A stretch of DNA of 64,000 bases from Candidatus Tectomicrobia bacterium. GTDB taxonomy: Bacteria; UBA8248. Where the stretch lies: the NCBI GenBank assembly GCA_016192135.1, contig JACPUR010000017.1, positions 248,001 to 312,000 on the forward strand, read 5' to 3'. Positions 8,962-63,526 of the stretch are shown in pieces (position 1 is the first letter of the stretch; the number at the start of each line of letters is the position of its first letter). The position numbers and the translations under genes were made by a program. The notes beneath the pieces are model-generated. The model was not told where the DNA came from and ran no database searches. It worked only from the letters and a program-made list of their open reading frames with translations.

Positions 8962-10254
8962 ATGGCGATAGCCTCTAAGGAACGTGACGTAAATCTGGCG
9001 GAACTGAAGCGCAAGACCATCGTCGAGCTGAACAAGATAACCAAGGACCTCAACATCGAGGGCACGAGCGGCCTGCGGAAGCAGGACCTCATCTACAAGA
9101 TCCTCGAGGCCCAGACCGAGCGCGAGCGCCAGGACGGCGGCGGCGGGGTCATCTTCGGCGAAGGCGTGCTGGAGATACTGCCCGACGGCTTCGGCTTCCT
9201 CCGCTCCCCGGCGTACAACTACCTGCCCGGCCCCGACGACATCTACGTCTCCCCCAGCCAGATCCGGCGCTTCAACCTGCGCACCGGCGACACGGTGGGC
9301 GGCGAGATCCGCCAGCCGAAGGAGGGCGAGCGCTACTTCGCCCTGCTCAAGGTCGAGAAGATCAACTACGAAGGCCCCGAGGCCAGCGCCGACAAGGTCC
9401 TCTTCGACAACCTGACGCCCCTCTACCCGAACCGGCGCATCCGGCTCGAAATCGCCGCCAGCGACATGAGCAGCCGCATCATGGACCTGCTCACCCCCAT
9501 CGGGTTCGGCCAGCGCGGGCTGATCGTCGCCGCCCCCCGGACCGGAAAGACCATGCTCCTGCAGTCCATCGCCAAGAGCGTCGCCACGAATCACCCCGAC
9601 GTGCACCTCATCGTGCTGCTCATCGACGAGCGCCCCGAGGAGGTCACCGACATGGAGCGCTCGGTCCGCGGCGAGGTCATCAGCTCCACCTTCGACGAGC
9701 CGGCCTCCCGCCACGTGCAGGTGGCCGACATGGTCATCGAGAAGGCGAAGCGCCTCGTCGAGCACAAGAAGGACGTGGTCATTCTCCTCGACTCCATCAC
9801 CCGCCTCGCCCGGGCGCACAACACCATCATCTCGCCCAGCGGCAAGGTGCTCTCCGGCGGCGTGGACTCGAACGCCCTCCAGCGGCCCAAGCGCTTCTTC
9901 GGCGCCGCGCGGAACATCGAGGAGGGAGGCAGCCTCACCATCCTGGCGACCGCCCTGGTCGAGACGGGCAGCCGCATGGACGACGTGATCTTCGAGGAGT
10001 TCAAGGGCACGGGCAACATGGAGGTGCACCTCGACCGGAAGCTCTCCGACAAGCGCGTGTTCCCCTCCATCGACATCAACCGCTCGGGCACCCGGAAGGA
10101 GGAGCTCCTGCTCTCGCCGGCCGAGCTCAACCGCGTCTGGATCCTCCGCAAGGTGCTCCAGCCGCTGGGCGTGGTGGACTCGATGGAGCTCCTGCTCGAG
10201 AAGATGCAGCAGACCAAGACCAACGAGGACTTCCTGGCCTCGATGAACAACTAG
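8962..10254 (+). CDS. rho: Transcription termination factor Rho
   Basis: 430-residue hexameric RNA helicase/translocase. The N-terminal helical bundle ([21 protein letters not shown]) is followed by the cold-shock-like RNA-binding domain with DGFGFLRSP and the [16 protein letters not shown] loop. Walker A is APRTGKT (residues 191-197), Walker B is [14 protein letters not shown], and the Q-loop/R-loop follows as [10 protein letters not shown]. The length is close to E. coli Rho, with no large insertion. AGGAGA about 7 bp upstream supports the ATG at 8962 over the ATG at 8957. An intrinsic terminator follows within 11 bp. Confidence 0.98.
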
Positions 10255-28290: not shown

Positions 28291-28678
<388 letters not shown>

Positions 28679-37385: not shown

Positions 37386-38198
37386 ATGGTCACCTGCACC
37401 CACCGCAAGAAAATCACTTCCGTCACCGTCCGCGCGAGCAAGGGCGGCGAGCGCCTGACCTCGGTGACGGCCTACGACTATCCCACAGCCAAGATCGCCG
37501 ACGAGGCGGGGGTGGACATCCTTCTCGTCGGGGACAGCCTCGGCATGGTGGTGCTCGGCTACCCGGACACCACGAAGGTCACCCTCGACGACATCCTCCA
37601 CCACACGAAGGCGGTGGCCCGCGCCAAGCCGCTGTCTCTCCTGGTGGCGGACCTGCCCTTCCTCACGTACGGGGTCGATGTCCGGGAAACCGTCCGGAAC
37701 GCCGGGCGGCTGATCCAGGAGGGCGGCGCGGAGGCGGTCAAGCTCGAGGGCGGGGTGCGGGTGCGCGAGGACATCCGGGCGGTGGTGGACTGCCAGATCC
37801 CGGTGATGGGCCACGTGGGGCTCACGCCCCAAAGCTTCCACGCCTTCGGCGGCTTCAAGATCCAGGGCAAGAAGAGCGAGGACGCGGACCGGGTGCTGCG
37901 CGACGCGGTGGCGGTCCAGGAGGCGGGGGCATTCTCGGTGGTCCTCGAGGGCATCCCCGCTGCGCTGGCCGGACGCATCACCCGCGAGATCGATATCCCC
38001 ACCATCGGCATCGGCGCGGGTCCCGCCTGTGACGGCCAGGTCCTCGTCCTTCACGACATGCTCGGCTTGTACCCCGACTTCCAGCCCAAGTTCGTGAAGG
38101 TGTATGCCAATCTGGGGGACGCCACCCGCTCCGCCTTCGAGCGGTTCTGCCGGGAGGTGCGAGAGGGCGTCTTTCCGGGGCCGGAGCATTCCTTCTAA
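37386..38198 (+). CDS. panB: 3-methyl-2-oxobutanoate hydroxymethyltransferase
   Basis: 270 residues. First step of pantothenate synthesis, adding a hydroxymethyl group from methylene-THF to ketoisovalerate. Landmarks are TAYDYPTAKIADEAGVDILLVGDSLG, the metal-binding Asp in VADLPF, VKLEGG, GHVGLTPQS and IGIGAGPACDGQVLV. The protein is of normal length. No panC follows. coaE at 7.9 kb belongs to the same CoA route. Confidence 0.97.
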   Translation: MVTCTHRKKITSVTVRASKGGERLTSVTAYDYPTAKIADEAGVDILLVGDSLGMVVLGYPDTTKVTLDDILHHTKAVARAKPLSLLVADLPFLTYGVDVRETVRNAGRLIQEGGAEAVKLEGGVRVREDIRAVVDCQIPVMGHVGLTPQSFHAFGGFKIQGKKSEDADRVLRDAVAVQEAGAFSVVLEGIPAALAGRITREIDIPTIGIGAGPACDGQVLVLHDMLGLYPDFQPKFVKVYANLGDATRSAFERFCREVREGVFPGPEHSF

Positions 38199-38243
38199 GC
38201 CCCTCACACGCGGCCCTGAAATCGAAAAACCGCTTCCTTTCAC

Positions 38244-38273
38244 AAAAAAAGAAGCGGGGTTTTTCCCCGCTTC
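38244..38273 (-). terminator. Intrinsic terminator for leftward transcription
   Basis: On the minus strand a perfect 9-bp stem GAAGCGGGG/CCCCGCTTC with a 5-nt loop (38251-38273) is followed by seven T (38250-38244). On the plus strand no T-run follows, so it serves a minus-strand transcript. No minus-strand protein gene exists to its right. Confidence 0.85.
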
Positions 38274-38662
38274 CATCCTTCCTCTTTCGAATTGACCATC
38301 TGACTGGTCTGCGGAAGGTTAGCCTCCCGCCTTTGCACCGGGCGCCTGGACACCCGCGGCAACCGTCAACTATGGAACCGGCCTACGGTCGTCGCTCCCC
38401 GGGAGGCCGGTGTTTTCCGCTCCCGAGGAGCTATCCTGCTTCACCACAGCCTCCTCCGGCCCAACGGCTTGCTCCTTTATGGGGAAGCGTGGCCGGCAGC
38501 GCTTCTCGCCGCTCTTTTAAAGACCAAGAGGTGGAAAAGTCTTGCCTTCCCTCTTACCGAAGGCTCTTTTCCACCTCTTGGATGAAGGGAAGAAAGGATA
38601 AGGCCAAGGGCTGAAGTTCTTTGTTCCACGAATTCCGCTCTCTCTGGCCTCATCCCCCCTCA
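38244..38662 (-). ncRNA. Candidate structured non-coding RNA between panB and mraZ
   Basis: About 0.4 kb on the minus strand bounded by a promoter-like pair (38669-38697) and a perfect intrinsic terminator. No plausible protein is encoded there. Strong secondary structure: 38524-38539 and 38566-38581 are a perfect 16-bp inverted repeat enclosing a 6-bp inner stem (GCCTTC/GAAGGC). 38405-38410 pairs with 38456-38461 (GGCCGG/CCGGCC) around an 8-bp GAGGAG-type stem with one bulge. I could not match it to tmRNA, 6S, SRP RNA or a riboswitch core. Start, end and processing are inferred. Confidence 0.4.
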
Positions 38663-38668
38663 TTATTC

Positions 38669-38697
38669 AATTTAAGAGCCAGGCCGGGAGCGATCAA
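38669..38697 (-). promoter_or_regulatory. Promoter-like pair for the candidate minus-strand RNA
   Basis: Read on the minus strand: TTGATC at 38697-38692, 17-bp spacer, TAAATT at 38674-38669. Each hexamer matches consensus at 4 of 6. 38641-38880 is distinctly AT-rich compared with the genes around it, and beyond this pair and the mraZ promoter I see nothing there. Confidence 0.35.
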
Positions 38698-38888
38698 GGC
38701 CCCCGATCGAGATAACCTGCCCGTTTCTCCCACCGCGCCGCGTTGTTTTCGTAATTCATTTAGAATCAGTTTCTTAGATGAAATTCAGTCAGATGATTCG
38801 CCCTTTATTTCCCCTATGCATAAATGAGCCATAACTCTCATTTTCATCGGGAAATACCTGAATTGCAGTTAATTCCTTAAGAATTCCG

Positions 38889-38918
38889 TTGACACTCTTC
38901 TTGGCCGGGGGGTATATA
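38889..38918 (+). promoter_or_regulatory. Promoter of the division and cell wall cluster (Pmra)
   Basis: TTGACA at 38889-38894, 18-bp spacer, TATATA at 38913-38918, immediately upstream of the MraZ boxes. Likely main promoter for mraZ through ftsZ. Confidence 0.8.
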
Positions 38919-38930
38919 CGAAGGCATTAG

Positions 38931-38955
38931 TGGGGGAAAGTGGAATAATGTGGGG
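38931..38955 (+). promoter_or_regulatory. MraZ operator: three boxes in 10-bp register
   Basis: TGGGG at 38931-38935, TGGAA at 38941-38945 and TGGGG at 38951-38955, each separated by 5 bp. This is the TGGGN-N5 direct-repeat array bound by MraZ in other bacteria; the middle box deviates. The third box overlaps the ribosome binding site GGGGGAG of mraZ, so MraZ should autorepress the cluster. Confidence 0.8.
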
Positions 38956-38964
38956 GAGCCGCCC

Positions 38965-39411
38965 ATGCTCATCAGCTCCCACGCCGTATCCGTGGACGCG
39001 AAGGGGCGCGTCAGCATTCCCGCCCGCTTCAGGGAGTATCTGAGCTCCACATACGGCGACCAGCTGGTGCTGCTCGACATGGACAACTGCATCTTCGCCT
39101 ATCCCCTTGAGGAGTGGAGGCGAAGATTCAGCGAAAAATTTCGGGACCTGCCCACTTACCGCGAGGAGGTCCGCCGCTACCTCCGGCGAATGTACGGGCG
39201 GGCGATGCAGTGCGAGCTCGACAAGCAGGGGCGCATCCTCTTGCCGGGGCGCATCCGGGAGGCGGCGGGAATCCAGAAGGAGGCCGTCATCGTCGGCCTG
39301 GAGAACAAGTTTGAGATTTGGAGCCGGGAGCGATGGGAACAGCAGGGGGAGGGGCAGCCCGGCCAAGCCCAGGAGGCGGCGGAACAGGGCTTAATCGAAC
39401 TGGAGTTCTAA
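38965..39411 (+). CDS. mraZ: Transcriptional regulator MraZ
   Basis: 148 residues with two AbrB-like swapped-hairpin repeats, each with the MraZ signature (DAKGRVSIPARF near residue 11 and DKQGRILLPGRI near residue 89). It forms a ring that binds direct repeats in front of its own operon; such boxes are present just upstream. The ATG at 38965 has GGGGGAG 6 bp before it. A GTG at 38950 would add five residues and fall within the third box. The C-terminal tail is Gln/Glu/Ala-rich. Confidence 0.95.
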   Translation: MLISSHAVSVDAKGRVSIPARFREYLSSTYGDQLVLLDMDNCIFAYPLEEWRRRFSEKFRDLPTYREEVRRYLRRMYGRAMQCELDKQGRILLPGRIREAAGIQKEAVIVGLENKFEIWSRERWEQQGEGQPGQAQEAAEQGLIELEF

Positions 39412-40819: not shown

Positions 40820-42682
40820 ATGGCAGGAAGCGGGCTCGTGAGACAGGGCCACCTGCGCCGGCTGATCGCGTGCGGCGTCCTCGTGGGGCTCGGCTTCGCC
40901 GCGCTGGCGGTCAAGCTTTTCCTGATCCAGATACGCGACCGGGAGTTCCTGGTCGCTTTCGCGGAGCGGCAGCTCCGGCGGACGCTCGTCGTGAGGCCCA
41001 AGCGGGGGGAGATTCTCGACACACGGGGCCGGCCCCTTGCCGTGAGCGTGGAGGCGCCCTCCTTGTACGCGAACCCGCAGGAGATCGAGAACCCCCGCGA
41101 GGCGGCGGCCGCCTTGAGCCGGGCCCTCGGAATCCCCGGGCCGGAACTCGATCACAAGCTGAGCGGGGACAAGCGCTACGTCTGGCTCCAGCGCAAGATC
41201 AACCCGGAGGAGAAGCGCAGGGTCATGGAGCTCGAGATTGAAGGCCTGGGCTTCGCCACCGAGAGCCGGCGCTTCTATCCGAAGCGGGAGCTGGCCTCCT
41301 CGCTGCTCGGCTTCGTCGGGGTGGACGAGAAGGGGCTCTCGGGCGTGGAGCGGGCCTTCGAGGCCCAGATGGGCGGGCAGGCGGGGCGAGTGGAGATCGA
41401 GCGCGACGCCCGCGGCCGGTCCATTCATCCGGAGGCGCGGGTCCTTCGCTTCCCGCGGGCGGGGGCGGACGTCCGGCTGACCATCGACGAGGTGCTCCAG
41501 TTCATCGTGGAGAAGGAGCTCGCGGCCCAGGTGGCGCAGGTCGGGGCGCGGCGGGGCATCGGGGTCATGGTCGAACCCTCGAGCGGCCGGGTCTTGGCCA
41601 TGGCCTCCGTGCCGGGGTTCAACCCGAACGCCTACGAGCGCTACCCGGCCGACCGCTGGCGGGACGCCGTCCTGCAGGAGGTGTACGAGCCGGGTTCCAC
41701 CTTCAAGCTGATCACCGCCGCCGCCTACTTGGAAGCGGGCGGGGATTGGCGCAAAATGTTTTTCTGCGAAGAGGGGCTTCTGCGGGTCGGGGCAGGCTAT
41801 ACTCTCCGCGACCACAAGAAGTTTGGTTGGTTGTCCGCCGAGCAGGTGATCGTCCATTCCTCCAACATCGGCACCTACAAGATGGGCGCGGAGGCGGGGC
41901 CCGAGCGGCTTTACCGCATGGCCCGCCGCTTCGGCTTCGGCCAGGCCATCGACATCGGCTTGGCCGGACAGGCGGAGGGAATCCTCCGCCCGCCCGCCCG
42001 CTGGTCGGGCACCTCGGTTGCGGCCGTCTCCATCGGCCAGGAGGTGGGCGTGACCCCGCTCCAGATGGTCATGATGGCCGCGGCCATCGCCAACGGCGGA
42101 ATGATGCCCGGGGCGCGCCTCGTCGAGGACGTGGAGCAGGACGGCCAGCCCCTGTGGCACCCGGCCCGGCGGGAGCCGCGGCGGGTGCTCGGCGCCCGCA
42201 CGGCGGCCGTGCTGGCCCAGACCATGCGGAAGGTCGTGGCCGAGGGGAGCGGAGGACAGGCCGAGGTGCCGGGATACTGGGCGGCGGGGAAGACGGGGAC
42301 GGCCCAGAAGCTCGACCGGGAGACCAAGACCTACAGCCGGAGCAAGTTCGTCATGTCGTTCGTGGGCTTCGTCCCCTTCAAGGACCCGCGCCTGGCGCTG
42401 CTGGTGATCATCGACGAGGGCCGGGGAAGAGAGGGCGCGTGGGGCGGTTCCGTGGCGGCGCCGGCGTGGCGGCGGATCGCCTGGCAGTCCCTTCGCTACC
42501 TCCGGGTTCCGCCCGAGGGGGCGAGGGTGCTGGAGGCCGCCGGGCAGGCGCCCGAAGCCCCGCTTCCGGTATCCTCCAAGGGTTTCTCGTTCGGCGAAAA
42601 AGTATCCTCGCTGGCCCGGACGGTTCACCACGTTCTTCATGGTTCCGCCTCCGCCCCCTCACCAGAGGAGCGCGGGCATTGA
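40820..42682 (+). CDS. ftsI: Septal peptidoglycan transpeptidase (penicillin-binding protein 3, FtsI)
   Basis: 620 residues, class B PBP. One N-terminal membrane anchor (about 13-35). The dimerisation/pedestal domain contains RGEILDTRGRPLA. The transpeptidase has Ser293-Thr-Phe-Lys296 (PGSTFKLI), Ser346-Ser-Asn348, and Lys490-Thr-Gly-Thr493. It crosslinks septal peptidoglycan together with FtsW. No PASTA domains. An alternative upstream start in the 25-bp gap to ftsL is not needed. Confidence 0.96.
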   Translation: MAGSGLVRQGHLRRLIACGVLVGLGFAALAVKLFLIQIRDREFLVAFAERQLRRTLVVRPKRGEILDTRGRPLAVSVEAPSLYANPQEIENPREAAAALSRALGIPGPELDHKLSGDKRYVWLQRKINPEEKRRVMELEIEGLGFATESRRFYPKRELASSLLGFVGVDEKGLSGVERAFEAQMGGQAGRVEIERDARGRSIHPEARVLRFPRAGADVRLTIDEVLQFIVEKELAAQVAQVGARRGIGVMVEPSSGRVLAMASVPGFNPNAYERYPADRWRDAVLQEVYEPGSTFKLITAAAYLEAGGDWRKMFFCEEGLLRVGAGYTLRDHKKFGWLSAEQVIVHSSNIGTYKMGAEAGPERLYRMARRFGFGQAIDIGLAGQAEGILRPPARWSGTSVAAVSIGQEVGVTPLQMVMMAAAIANGGMMPGARLVEDVEQDGQPLWHPARREPRRVLGARTAAVLAQTMRKVVAEGSGGQAEVPGYWAAGKTGTAQKLDRETKTYSRSKFVMSFVGFVPFKDPRLALLVIIDEGRGREGAWGGSVAAPAWRRIAWQSLRYLRVPPEGARVLEAAGQAPEAPLPVSSKGFSFGEKVSSLARTVHHVLHGSASAPSPEERGH

Positions 42683-61022: not shown

Positions 61023-61099
61023 GGGGCTGTAGCGAAGCCGGTTATCGCGCTGGCCTGTCAAGCCAGAGATCGCGGGTTCGAGTCCCGTCAGCCCCGCCA
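61023..61099 (+). tRNA. tRNA-Asp (anticodon GTC), CCA encoded
   Basis: Acceptor GGGGCTG/CAGCCCC, D stem GCGA/TCGC, anticodon stem CTGGC/GCCAG with loop CTGTCAA (GTC at 61057-61059), T arm with TTCGAGT, G73 and encoded CCA. Confidence 0.96.
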
Positions 61100-61221: not shown

Positions 61222-61360
61222 TCTTGTCTGAGCCCGTATCGAAATGGGGAGGTTTCCTGCGGATTCCGTGTGCCGGAATATGCAAGGGAGCCGGAATGTG
61301 CAGTCGCGGGGGATATTTTTTCCCAAGCCGCCGACATCACGAGAACAAGGGGAGGTTCGT

Positions 61361-62350
61361 ATGAAACGTGCGGGGAAATTCTGGGCTGGGTTGGCCCTGG
61401 CGGGCCTGATGCTCGCCTCGGGATGGAGCGCCGAAGGGGCGCAGAAATTCCGCGTCGGAATCCACCGCGCCCTGTTCGGCTCCTTCGAGGTTGTGGCCGA
61501 CCGGATGGGTTACTGGAAAGCGGAGGGCCTGGATTACAACGTCGCCTACTTTAAGCAGGGCAAGCTGATGAACCGGGCCATCATCCAGGGAGACCTGGAC
61601 GTGGGGACGACCGGGTTCGCCCCCTTCGTTACCTCCGTGTCGAAGGGCGCCAAGCTGACCGGCATCGCGGTGACGACTGATCTCTGCGCCCAGCAGCGCG
61701 TCATGGTCGCGAAGAACTCGCCCATCAAGAGCATCAAGGATCTGAAAGGTAAGACCTTCGCCACCCTCATCGGCACGAGCGTGGATCAGTCGTTTAGGAC
61801 CTATGTCCTCCCGCGCCACGGCTTGACCGAGAAGGACCTGAAATGGCTCAACGTCGTCACCACCGACCGGGTGGCGGCCCTGGTGTCGGGGAACGCGGAC
61901 GCGGCCCTCGTCGGGGATCCCCAGGCCGAGATCGCGGCTCAGAAGGGGCTGGTCAGGGATATCGAGGATTTGTGCGCTTACGACCGACCGCGGATGATGC
62001 ACATCGGCAATCCGCAGACGATCAAGGCGAACCCGGATCAGTACGTGAAGTATTTCAGGGGATGGCTGAAGGCGATGCAGCTGCTGAAGAGCGATCCCGA
62101 GAAGTTCGCCAAGGTCTATCACGAGGCCCTGACGGAGGTGGGCGACAAGACGGAGTATTCGGTCGTCCTGGCCACCCTGAAGCGGCTGACGACGACCCCC
62201 GAGTTCAACGACGAGATCCGCAAGAACCTGACCGAGATCGCCGCGATGCAGAAGAAGCTGGGCTGGATCAAGAACCCTCCGAATTTCTCGAAGGGCGCGG
62301 CGATGGATGATTCCATGCTGAAGAAGGCGTCCACCGCCAGCGCCAATTAG
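61361..62350 (+). CDS. ABC transporter substrate-binding protein (NMT1/SsuA-like)
   Basis: 329 residues. N-terminal signal peptide (MKRAGKFWAGLALAGLMLASGWSA) with likely cleavage near residue 27, so it acts in the periplasm. The NMT1/THI5-like bilobal fold is suggested by GDLDVGTTGFAPFVTSVSKGAKL, IKDLKGKTFATLIGTS and LVSGNADAALVGDPQAEIAA. Substrate unknown; relatives bind sulfonates, nitrate, taurine or pyrimidine precursors. GGAGG 5 bp before the ATG. The permease and ATPase genes lie just downstream on the opposite strand, an unusual convergent arrangement. Confidence 0.9.
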   Translation: MKRAGKFWAGLALAGLMLASGWSAEGAQKFRVGIHRALFGSFEVVADRMGYWKAEGLDYNVAYFKQGKLMNRAIIQGDLDVGTTGFAPFVTSVSKGAKLTGIAVTTDLCAQQRVMVAKNSPIKSIKDLKGKTFATLIGTSVDQSFRTYVLPRHGLTEKDLKWLNVVTTDRVAALVSGNADAALVGDPQAEIAAQKGLVRDIEDLCAYDRPRMMHIGNPQTIKANPDQYVKYFRGWLKAMQLLKSDPEKFAKVYHEALTEVGDKTEYSVVLATLKRLTTTPEFNDEIRKNLTEIAAMQKKLGWIKNPPNFSKGAAMDDSMLKKASTASAN

Positions 62351-62608: not shown

Positions 62609-63526
62609 CTAGACCTTCTTGTTCTGCCCACCCATCGCTTCCATCATCCCCCACCGGATGACGGTCCGCTTTTCGACGGGCTGGAAGAGCACCTTCTCCA
62701 AGAGAAATCCGAAAACGCCCAGGATCGACAGCGCCACCATCATGAAGGCGATGTCGAGGAATTCCTGGGCGTCGAAGATGCCGGCCGAAAGCCCCCACTT
62801 GATCCCGCTGAAAGCCTCGGCGCCTACGCCGGCACGCCAGGCGCGGGCCATCCCGATCCGGAACCCGCTCATGATCATCGGAAGGGAGCCGGGGATGACG
62901 ACCGTGCGGAAGATGGTCATCTTGTTGGCATTCATGGACTGGGCGGCCCGGATCCAAACGGGATTGACGGTCTTCACCCCCGTCCATACCGCCATGGTAA
63001 TGGGCAGAAATGTGGCAAACCCAGTGATGATGATGACGGTCTGGTTTCCAAGGCCGAACCAGATTACCGCCATGGGCACCCAGGCCAGGGCCGGAATCGG
63101 CAGGAGCACGGCGATGAGGGGATAGCAGAACGATTCCCATAAGGCGAAGCGGCCCATCAGAACGCCGATGATGACCCCAAAGATCGCGCCCAGCAGGAAC
63201 GCAAACGGCAACCGCCAAGCGGTGTGGAAAGTGTGCCATAAGATGGGGCTCTGGAAGAAGTAGTAGAAATAATCGAAGAGCCCCAGGGCTGGATTTTCCT
63301 GAATCGCGTCCATCAGGGGGCCCATCAGAAGCTCCCACCCGCGATAGGCGATGGCGTCCAGGGTGGGGAAGAGCTGGCCCAGGTTCCCCTTCGCCTGCAT
63401 GGCGGCGATCTGCCATATGGTCAGGATCACCAGAAAAGGATAGGCTGGCCGCAGCTTCTGCCAGATCGAGGACGTCTTTTTCTTTTCAGTCATGTCCGGC
63501 GTGGGAAGAGTCTGGGCTTCCTGCAC
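62609..63526 (-). CDS. ABC transporter permease (SsuC/TauC-like)
   Basis: 305 residues, inner-membrane subunit of an uptake ABC transporter. About six membrane helices (34-50, 115-135, 140-165, 175-195, 215-240, 270-290). The EAA-type loop that contacts the ATPase is visible as IRAAQSMNANKMTIFRTVVIPGSLPMIMSGFRIGMARAW. Starts at 63526, 12 bp after the ATPase stop, so both form one leftward operon. Partner of the substrate-binding protein on the other strand, by inference from family and position. Confidence 0.92.
   Translation of the reverse strand: MQEAQTLPTPDMTEKKKTSSIWQKLRPAYPFLVILTIWQIAAMQAKGNLGQLFPTLDAIAYRGWELLMGPLMDAIQENPALGLFDYFYYFFQSPILWHTFHTAWRLPFAFLLGAIFGVIIGVLMGRFALWESFCYPLIAVLLPIPALAWVPMAVIWFGLGNQTVIIITGFATFLPITMAVWTGVKTVNPVWIRAAQSMNANKMTIFRTVVIPGSLPMIMSGFRIGMARAWRAGVGAEAFSGIKWGLSAGIFDAQEFLDIAFMMVALSILGVFGFLLEKVLFQPVEKRTVIRWGMMEAMGGQNKKV

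Follow-up and report, generated by a model that had tools for sequence, protein, structure and literature searches.

The panB-mraZ interval of the window (the whole stretch of DNA analysed, 64,000 nucleotides) may hold a lineage-specific gene that stands alone and specifies a structured, non-coding RNA some 420 nt long, read leftward and convergent with panB. It is a candidate only, and we weigh the RNA reading about evenly for and against, because looking for orphan promoters and terminators is a proven way of finding genuine small RNAs: such searches found intergenic small-RNA genes in Sinorhizobium meliloti (PMC2573895), and sRNAscanner predicts small RNAs from orphan promoter and terminator signals (PMC2916834). 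Read from the sequence, the case is a plausible one in which the terminator is strong, the fold moderate and the promoter weak. A preliminary description had proposed a non-coding RNA of 0.35–0.42 kb, and a minus-strand unit of about 0.42 kb is still the best reading, with its orphan terminator, its stabler minus strand, its lack of a coding signature and its fit between panB and the mraZ spacer; on the other side, it matches no Rfam family, is absent from all relatives and has a weak promoter. The features of the interval are as follows.

38199–38700, no strand: species-specific block in the slot of cobT-cobS of same-genus relatives, running from the panB stop up to the conserved mraZ spacer
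38225–38262, plus: weaker rightward hairpin of a putative panB terminator, sharing its middle arm with the leftward one (inverted repeat; fold −14.0 kcal/mol)
38244–38273, minus: intrinsic terminator with a 9-bp stem and seven T, stem-loop at 38251–38273 (strict scan)
38244–38663, minus: putative RNA of about 420 nt, delimited by promoter and terminator (minimum free energy −202.6 kcal/mol)
38275–38522, minus: predicted 3′ multi-hairpin region, stabler on the minus strand (z about −2.8) than on the plus strand (−0.5 to −0.7)
38523–38582, minus: predicted second hairpin, a perfect 16-bp inverted repeat with a 6-bp inner stem (fold, repeat scan)
38587–38661, minus: predicted 5′ hairpin, in which GAGGGGGGAUGAGGCC pairs with a 3′ arm containing GGCCUUAUCC, beginning at the predicted 5′ end (fold)
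38669–38697, minus: candidate promoter TTGATC-17-TAAATT with a predicted start at about 38662 (promoter scan)
38889–38949, plus: conserved mraZ promoter TTGACA-18-TATATA with GTGGGGG repeats, outside the candidate RNA (promoter scan, comparison with relatives)

A species-specific block in the slot of cobT-cobS

The window comes from a 365-kb contig of a 3.9-Mb genome that is 97% complete, and was compared with two species of the same genus and 15 others of the same family. Both panB (37386–38198, Pantoate_transf) and mraZ (38950–39411, MraZ) lie on the plus strand, with 751 bp between them in the window. In the two same-genus species (G001 and G002) and in G003, the order is panB, cobT, cobS, spacer and mraZ where the contig reaches, with cobT recognized as DBI_PRT in G002 and as the same reading frame in G001 and G003, and cobS as PF02654, while many other family members carry cobS without cobT. 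The window's own spacer at about 38715–38949 aligns with the cobS-mraZ spacer of these relatives, the best part being 38844–38943 with a 77–78% match to same-genus DNA, and the segment from 38199 to about 38700 therefore corresponds to the slot of the genus mates' cobT-cobS. Judged by these alignments, the block is swapped cleanly for the two genes. The block was rejected as a recognizable decayed copy of cobT-cobS, as its local alignment scores to these genes equal those of shuffles. Set against L044, L045 and L046, 38199–38949 lacks the cobT-cobS that stands between panB and mraZ in the same genus, and a search of the whole genome did not find CobS; the species has likely lost a late step of cobalamin assembly.

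A blastn search with the block gave no match in the 17 relatives, in about 370 other genomes (386 genomes) or in phages and plasmids, and none was found in viral contigs or elsewhere in its own genome, where it is single-copy. A covariance model built on the first two hairpins, and searched against 41 genomes and the syntenic intervals, retrieved only itself. A 22-nt match in the distant genome G358, a weak covariance-model match in an unrelated Bacillota contig and two viral matches of an 18-mer (other short viral patterns giving none) were taken as chance, and an inverted-repeat pattern scan of the genome collection yielded three palindromes, all unrelated. The lack of a homologue wherever we searched, two same-genus species included, counts against an RNA gene. 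It is quite improbable, in our judgement, that the block holds a new class of large structured RNA (about 420 nt) that one lineage gained while giving up two cobalamin genes, and whose homologues exist only in unsampled organisms.

The same distribution suits another reading, which we think possible though on balance doubtful, in which an inserted element or horizontally acquired DNA displaced cobT-cobS and left a remnant, the terminator and the 16-bp repeat being leftovers in what is now non-functional spacer. A single copy in one species, standing in place of two genes of relatives, would be expected of such a remnant, and so would the perfect inverted repeat, as perfect inverted repeats are typical of mobile DNA. 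However, the searches above returned no match in phages, plasmids or viral contigs and no second copy of the block, terminal repeats around it were not found, neither the terminator nor the repeat is broken, and what remains of the minus strand after their removal is stabler than shuffled sequence.

Terminator and promoter signals

A strict terminator scan of the whole 64 kb (stem of at least seven perfect pairs, four or more consecutive T) returned six terminators, three per strand, and none in six second-order Markov shuffles. Five of the six lie directly 3′ of a same-strand gene, namely the frame 8962–10254, the tRNA-Asp ending at 61099, the frame 61244–62350 and the minus-strand frame that ends at 62609 and has two terminators after it. 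The sixth, at 38251–38273 on the minus strand, has no same-strand gene ahead of it and is hence an orphan; it reads GAAGCGGGG-AAAAA-CCCCGCTTC-TTTTTTT from 38273 to 38244. This orphan terminator is the strongest evidence obtained, and no other single observation argues as well for leftward transcription. The perfect 9-bp leftward stem and the seven T had been described before, along with the absence of a minus-strand protein gene to their right, and both observations stand, so that no protein gene explains the strong terminator; the statement that it works only leftward needs qualifying, as a weaker rightward hairpin overlaps it.

In that rightward hairpin, the middle arm GAAGCGG (38251–38257) pairs with CCGCTTC at 38231–38237 on the plus strand, and GGTTTTT follows. 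It lies about 33 bp past panB and is likely the end of the panB message, and by its sequence the element plausibly works in both directions. The shared arm, together with the weakness of the minus-strand promoter, fits a rather unlikely alternative in which the signal is a bidirectional panB terminator and a barrier against antisense transcription, and the remaining block is ordinary spacer with chance structure. Against this alternative, hairpin and T-tract are both stronger in the leftward direction, the whole minus strand is stabler than 82 background segments, and 500 bp of replacement sequence without a reading frame would presumably be long for a spacer.

The promoter pair was present as first described, with TTGATC at 38697–38692, a 17-nt gap and TAAATT at 38674–38669, and is the top minus-strand site in 38290–38949, but it is statistically weak, its score being matched by 65 of 300 composition-matched shuffles of the 660-nt region (22%) and by 7 of 300 for the nearest 150 nt. 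The mraZ promoter at 38889–38918 scores higher. As evidence for the candidate RNA, the promoter is weak, and its predicted start at about 38662 sits at the base of the first hairpin of the fold. A 19-nt inverted similarity (84%) was also seen between 38655–38673, at the predicted RNA start, and 38938–38956, in the GTGGGGG repeats before mraZ; the overall similarity of the block to the mraZ spacer was not above shuffles. Similarly, 38598–38657 resembles the mraZ upstream region of G002, while over the whole block the resemblance was not above shuffles.

Fold and coding potential

Folding of 38244–38697 gave a z of −6.6 on the minus strand (−5.7 in a repeat run) and −5.6 on the plus strand, compared with a mean of −0.6, a standard deviation of 1.2 and a minimum of −5.5 among 82 background segments of the same length. 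The most stable of these segments, 2060–2513 (z −5.5), lies inside a long reading frame. The perfect inverted repeat with an inner stem that had been reported was recovered in full, with 16 of 16 pairs between 38524–38539 and 38566–38581 and the stem GCCUUC/GAAGGC inside it, and only one perfect inverted repeat in the window is longer. Much of the fold signal comes from this repeat, whose stability is the same on both strands (z of the second hairpin −7.2 minus, −8.9 plus); that the strongest hairpin shows no strand preference in the folding model counts against an RNA gene. With the repeat and the terminator removed, the z was −3.9 on the minus strand versus −2.0 on the plus strand, and the predicted fold moderately favours the minus strand. 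The first hairpin region (38583–38663) reached a z of only −2.3. A long-range pairing of GGCCGG at 38456–38461 with 38405–38410, proposed earlier, is possible by sequence but does not form when the RNA is folded from its predicted start to minimum energy; the bases then pair locally near 38490–38495.

On the RNA reading, transcription would start at about 38662, next to the spacer of the divergent mraZ promoter, which is preserved, run leftward through the 5′ hairpin, a near-perfect 22-bp hairpin and the 3′ multi-hairpin region, and stop at 38244, tail to tail with panB. The product would be a regulatory RNA with a stable fold, acting in trans through exposed loops or protein binding and without Hfq. 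A Pfam search did not find Hfq in any of six family genomes, this one included; as a control, the search was positive in 5 of 14 genomes that are known. Since Hfq was not found, Hfq-dependent pairing by the candidate RNA seems unlikely, and an Hfq-independent mode is argued for the same reason. Such a trans-acting, Hfq-independent regulatory role is weakly suggested.

The short frames in the block have a GC3 of 0.45–0.68, versus 0.86–0.92 in panB, mraZ and the 620-aa gene at 40820, and none has a Pfam match; by these measures the block is without a coding signature. It is very improbable that the minus-strand transcript is a small-protein mRNA, leaderless or ordinary, encoding 48 aa from 38663 or 58 aa from 38653. 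An ATG does stand at the predicted start, but the GC3 of these two frames is only 0.45–0.50, they share the lack of a Pfam match, they contain the perfect inverted repeat, and about 230–270 nt would be left as 3′ untranslated sequence.

Comparison with known RNA classes

With Rfam 15, searched at gathering and at permissive thresholds, no family reached the gathering score for the block, which agrees with the earlier remark that it could be placed in no recognizable family; the best matches, at 19 bits versus thresholds near 60, are located on the terminator hairpin. An identity as RNase P RNA or 6S RNA was rejected, as both are encoded elsewhere, the former at 28296–28668 on the plus strand (class A, RF00010, 298 bits) and the latter on another contig.

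That the block encodes the tmRNA this assembly lacks, or some other universal RNA, has next to no probability. The similar size and an assembly without tmRNA speak for it, but the block is not matched by the same-genus tmRNAs (363 nt, 99% alike) or by those of the family, most of which are 75–87% alike to the same-genus ones, and the Rfam search together with the sister-species comparison refutes the identity. Neither tmRNA nor SmpB was found in the assembly (G000). Since SmpB, whose gene adjoins that of tmRNA in the sister species, is missing too, an assembly gap is the simple explanation of the missing tmRNA, and the two absences are probably a single gap. In the two sister species, whose tmRNA has the tag ADTELALAA, an integrase-like reading frame lies just beyond it, and in several members of the family the 3′ end of tmRNA is duplicated at a distance of about 1 kb (loci L081, L082, L107 and L108 for these observations). 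Both would be expected of a tmRNA gene that serves as an integration site. Compared with tmRNA (RF00023), the block is alike in length, as had been noted, and differs in having no tRNA-like ends, no tag reading frame, no model match and no similarity to the sister-species tmRNA.

The block is purine-rich with several GGA, like the CsrB/RsmZ-type protein-sequestering RNAs (RF00166 relatives). A match to RF00166 itself scored 14.6 bits (E 0.79), far below gathering, and a CsrB-like array was rejected, as the 17 GGA compare with 14.4 in shuffles and are mostly paired, with few exposed in hairpin loops.

If expressed, the candidate would be a young RNA gene with a bounded origin, found in one species only, with cobT-cobS in the same slot of two genus mates; as it is, the sequence offers one more plausible candidate for an orphan small RNA, from a lineage that only fragmented draft assemblies represent here. 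The closest comparison is with the intergenic bacterial small-RNA genes (PMC2573895, PMC2916834). The candidate differs from these in being longer than most, in not being conserved within its genus and in coming from a genome in which Hfq was not found, while it resembles them in the type of evidence behind it, in its intergenic position, in a putative promoter-terminator pair within the range of 40–500 bp and in having no reading frame.
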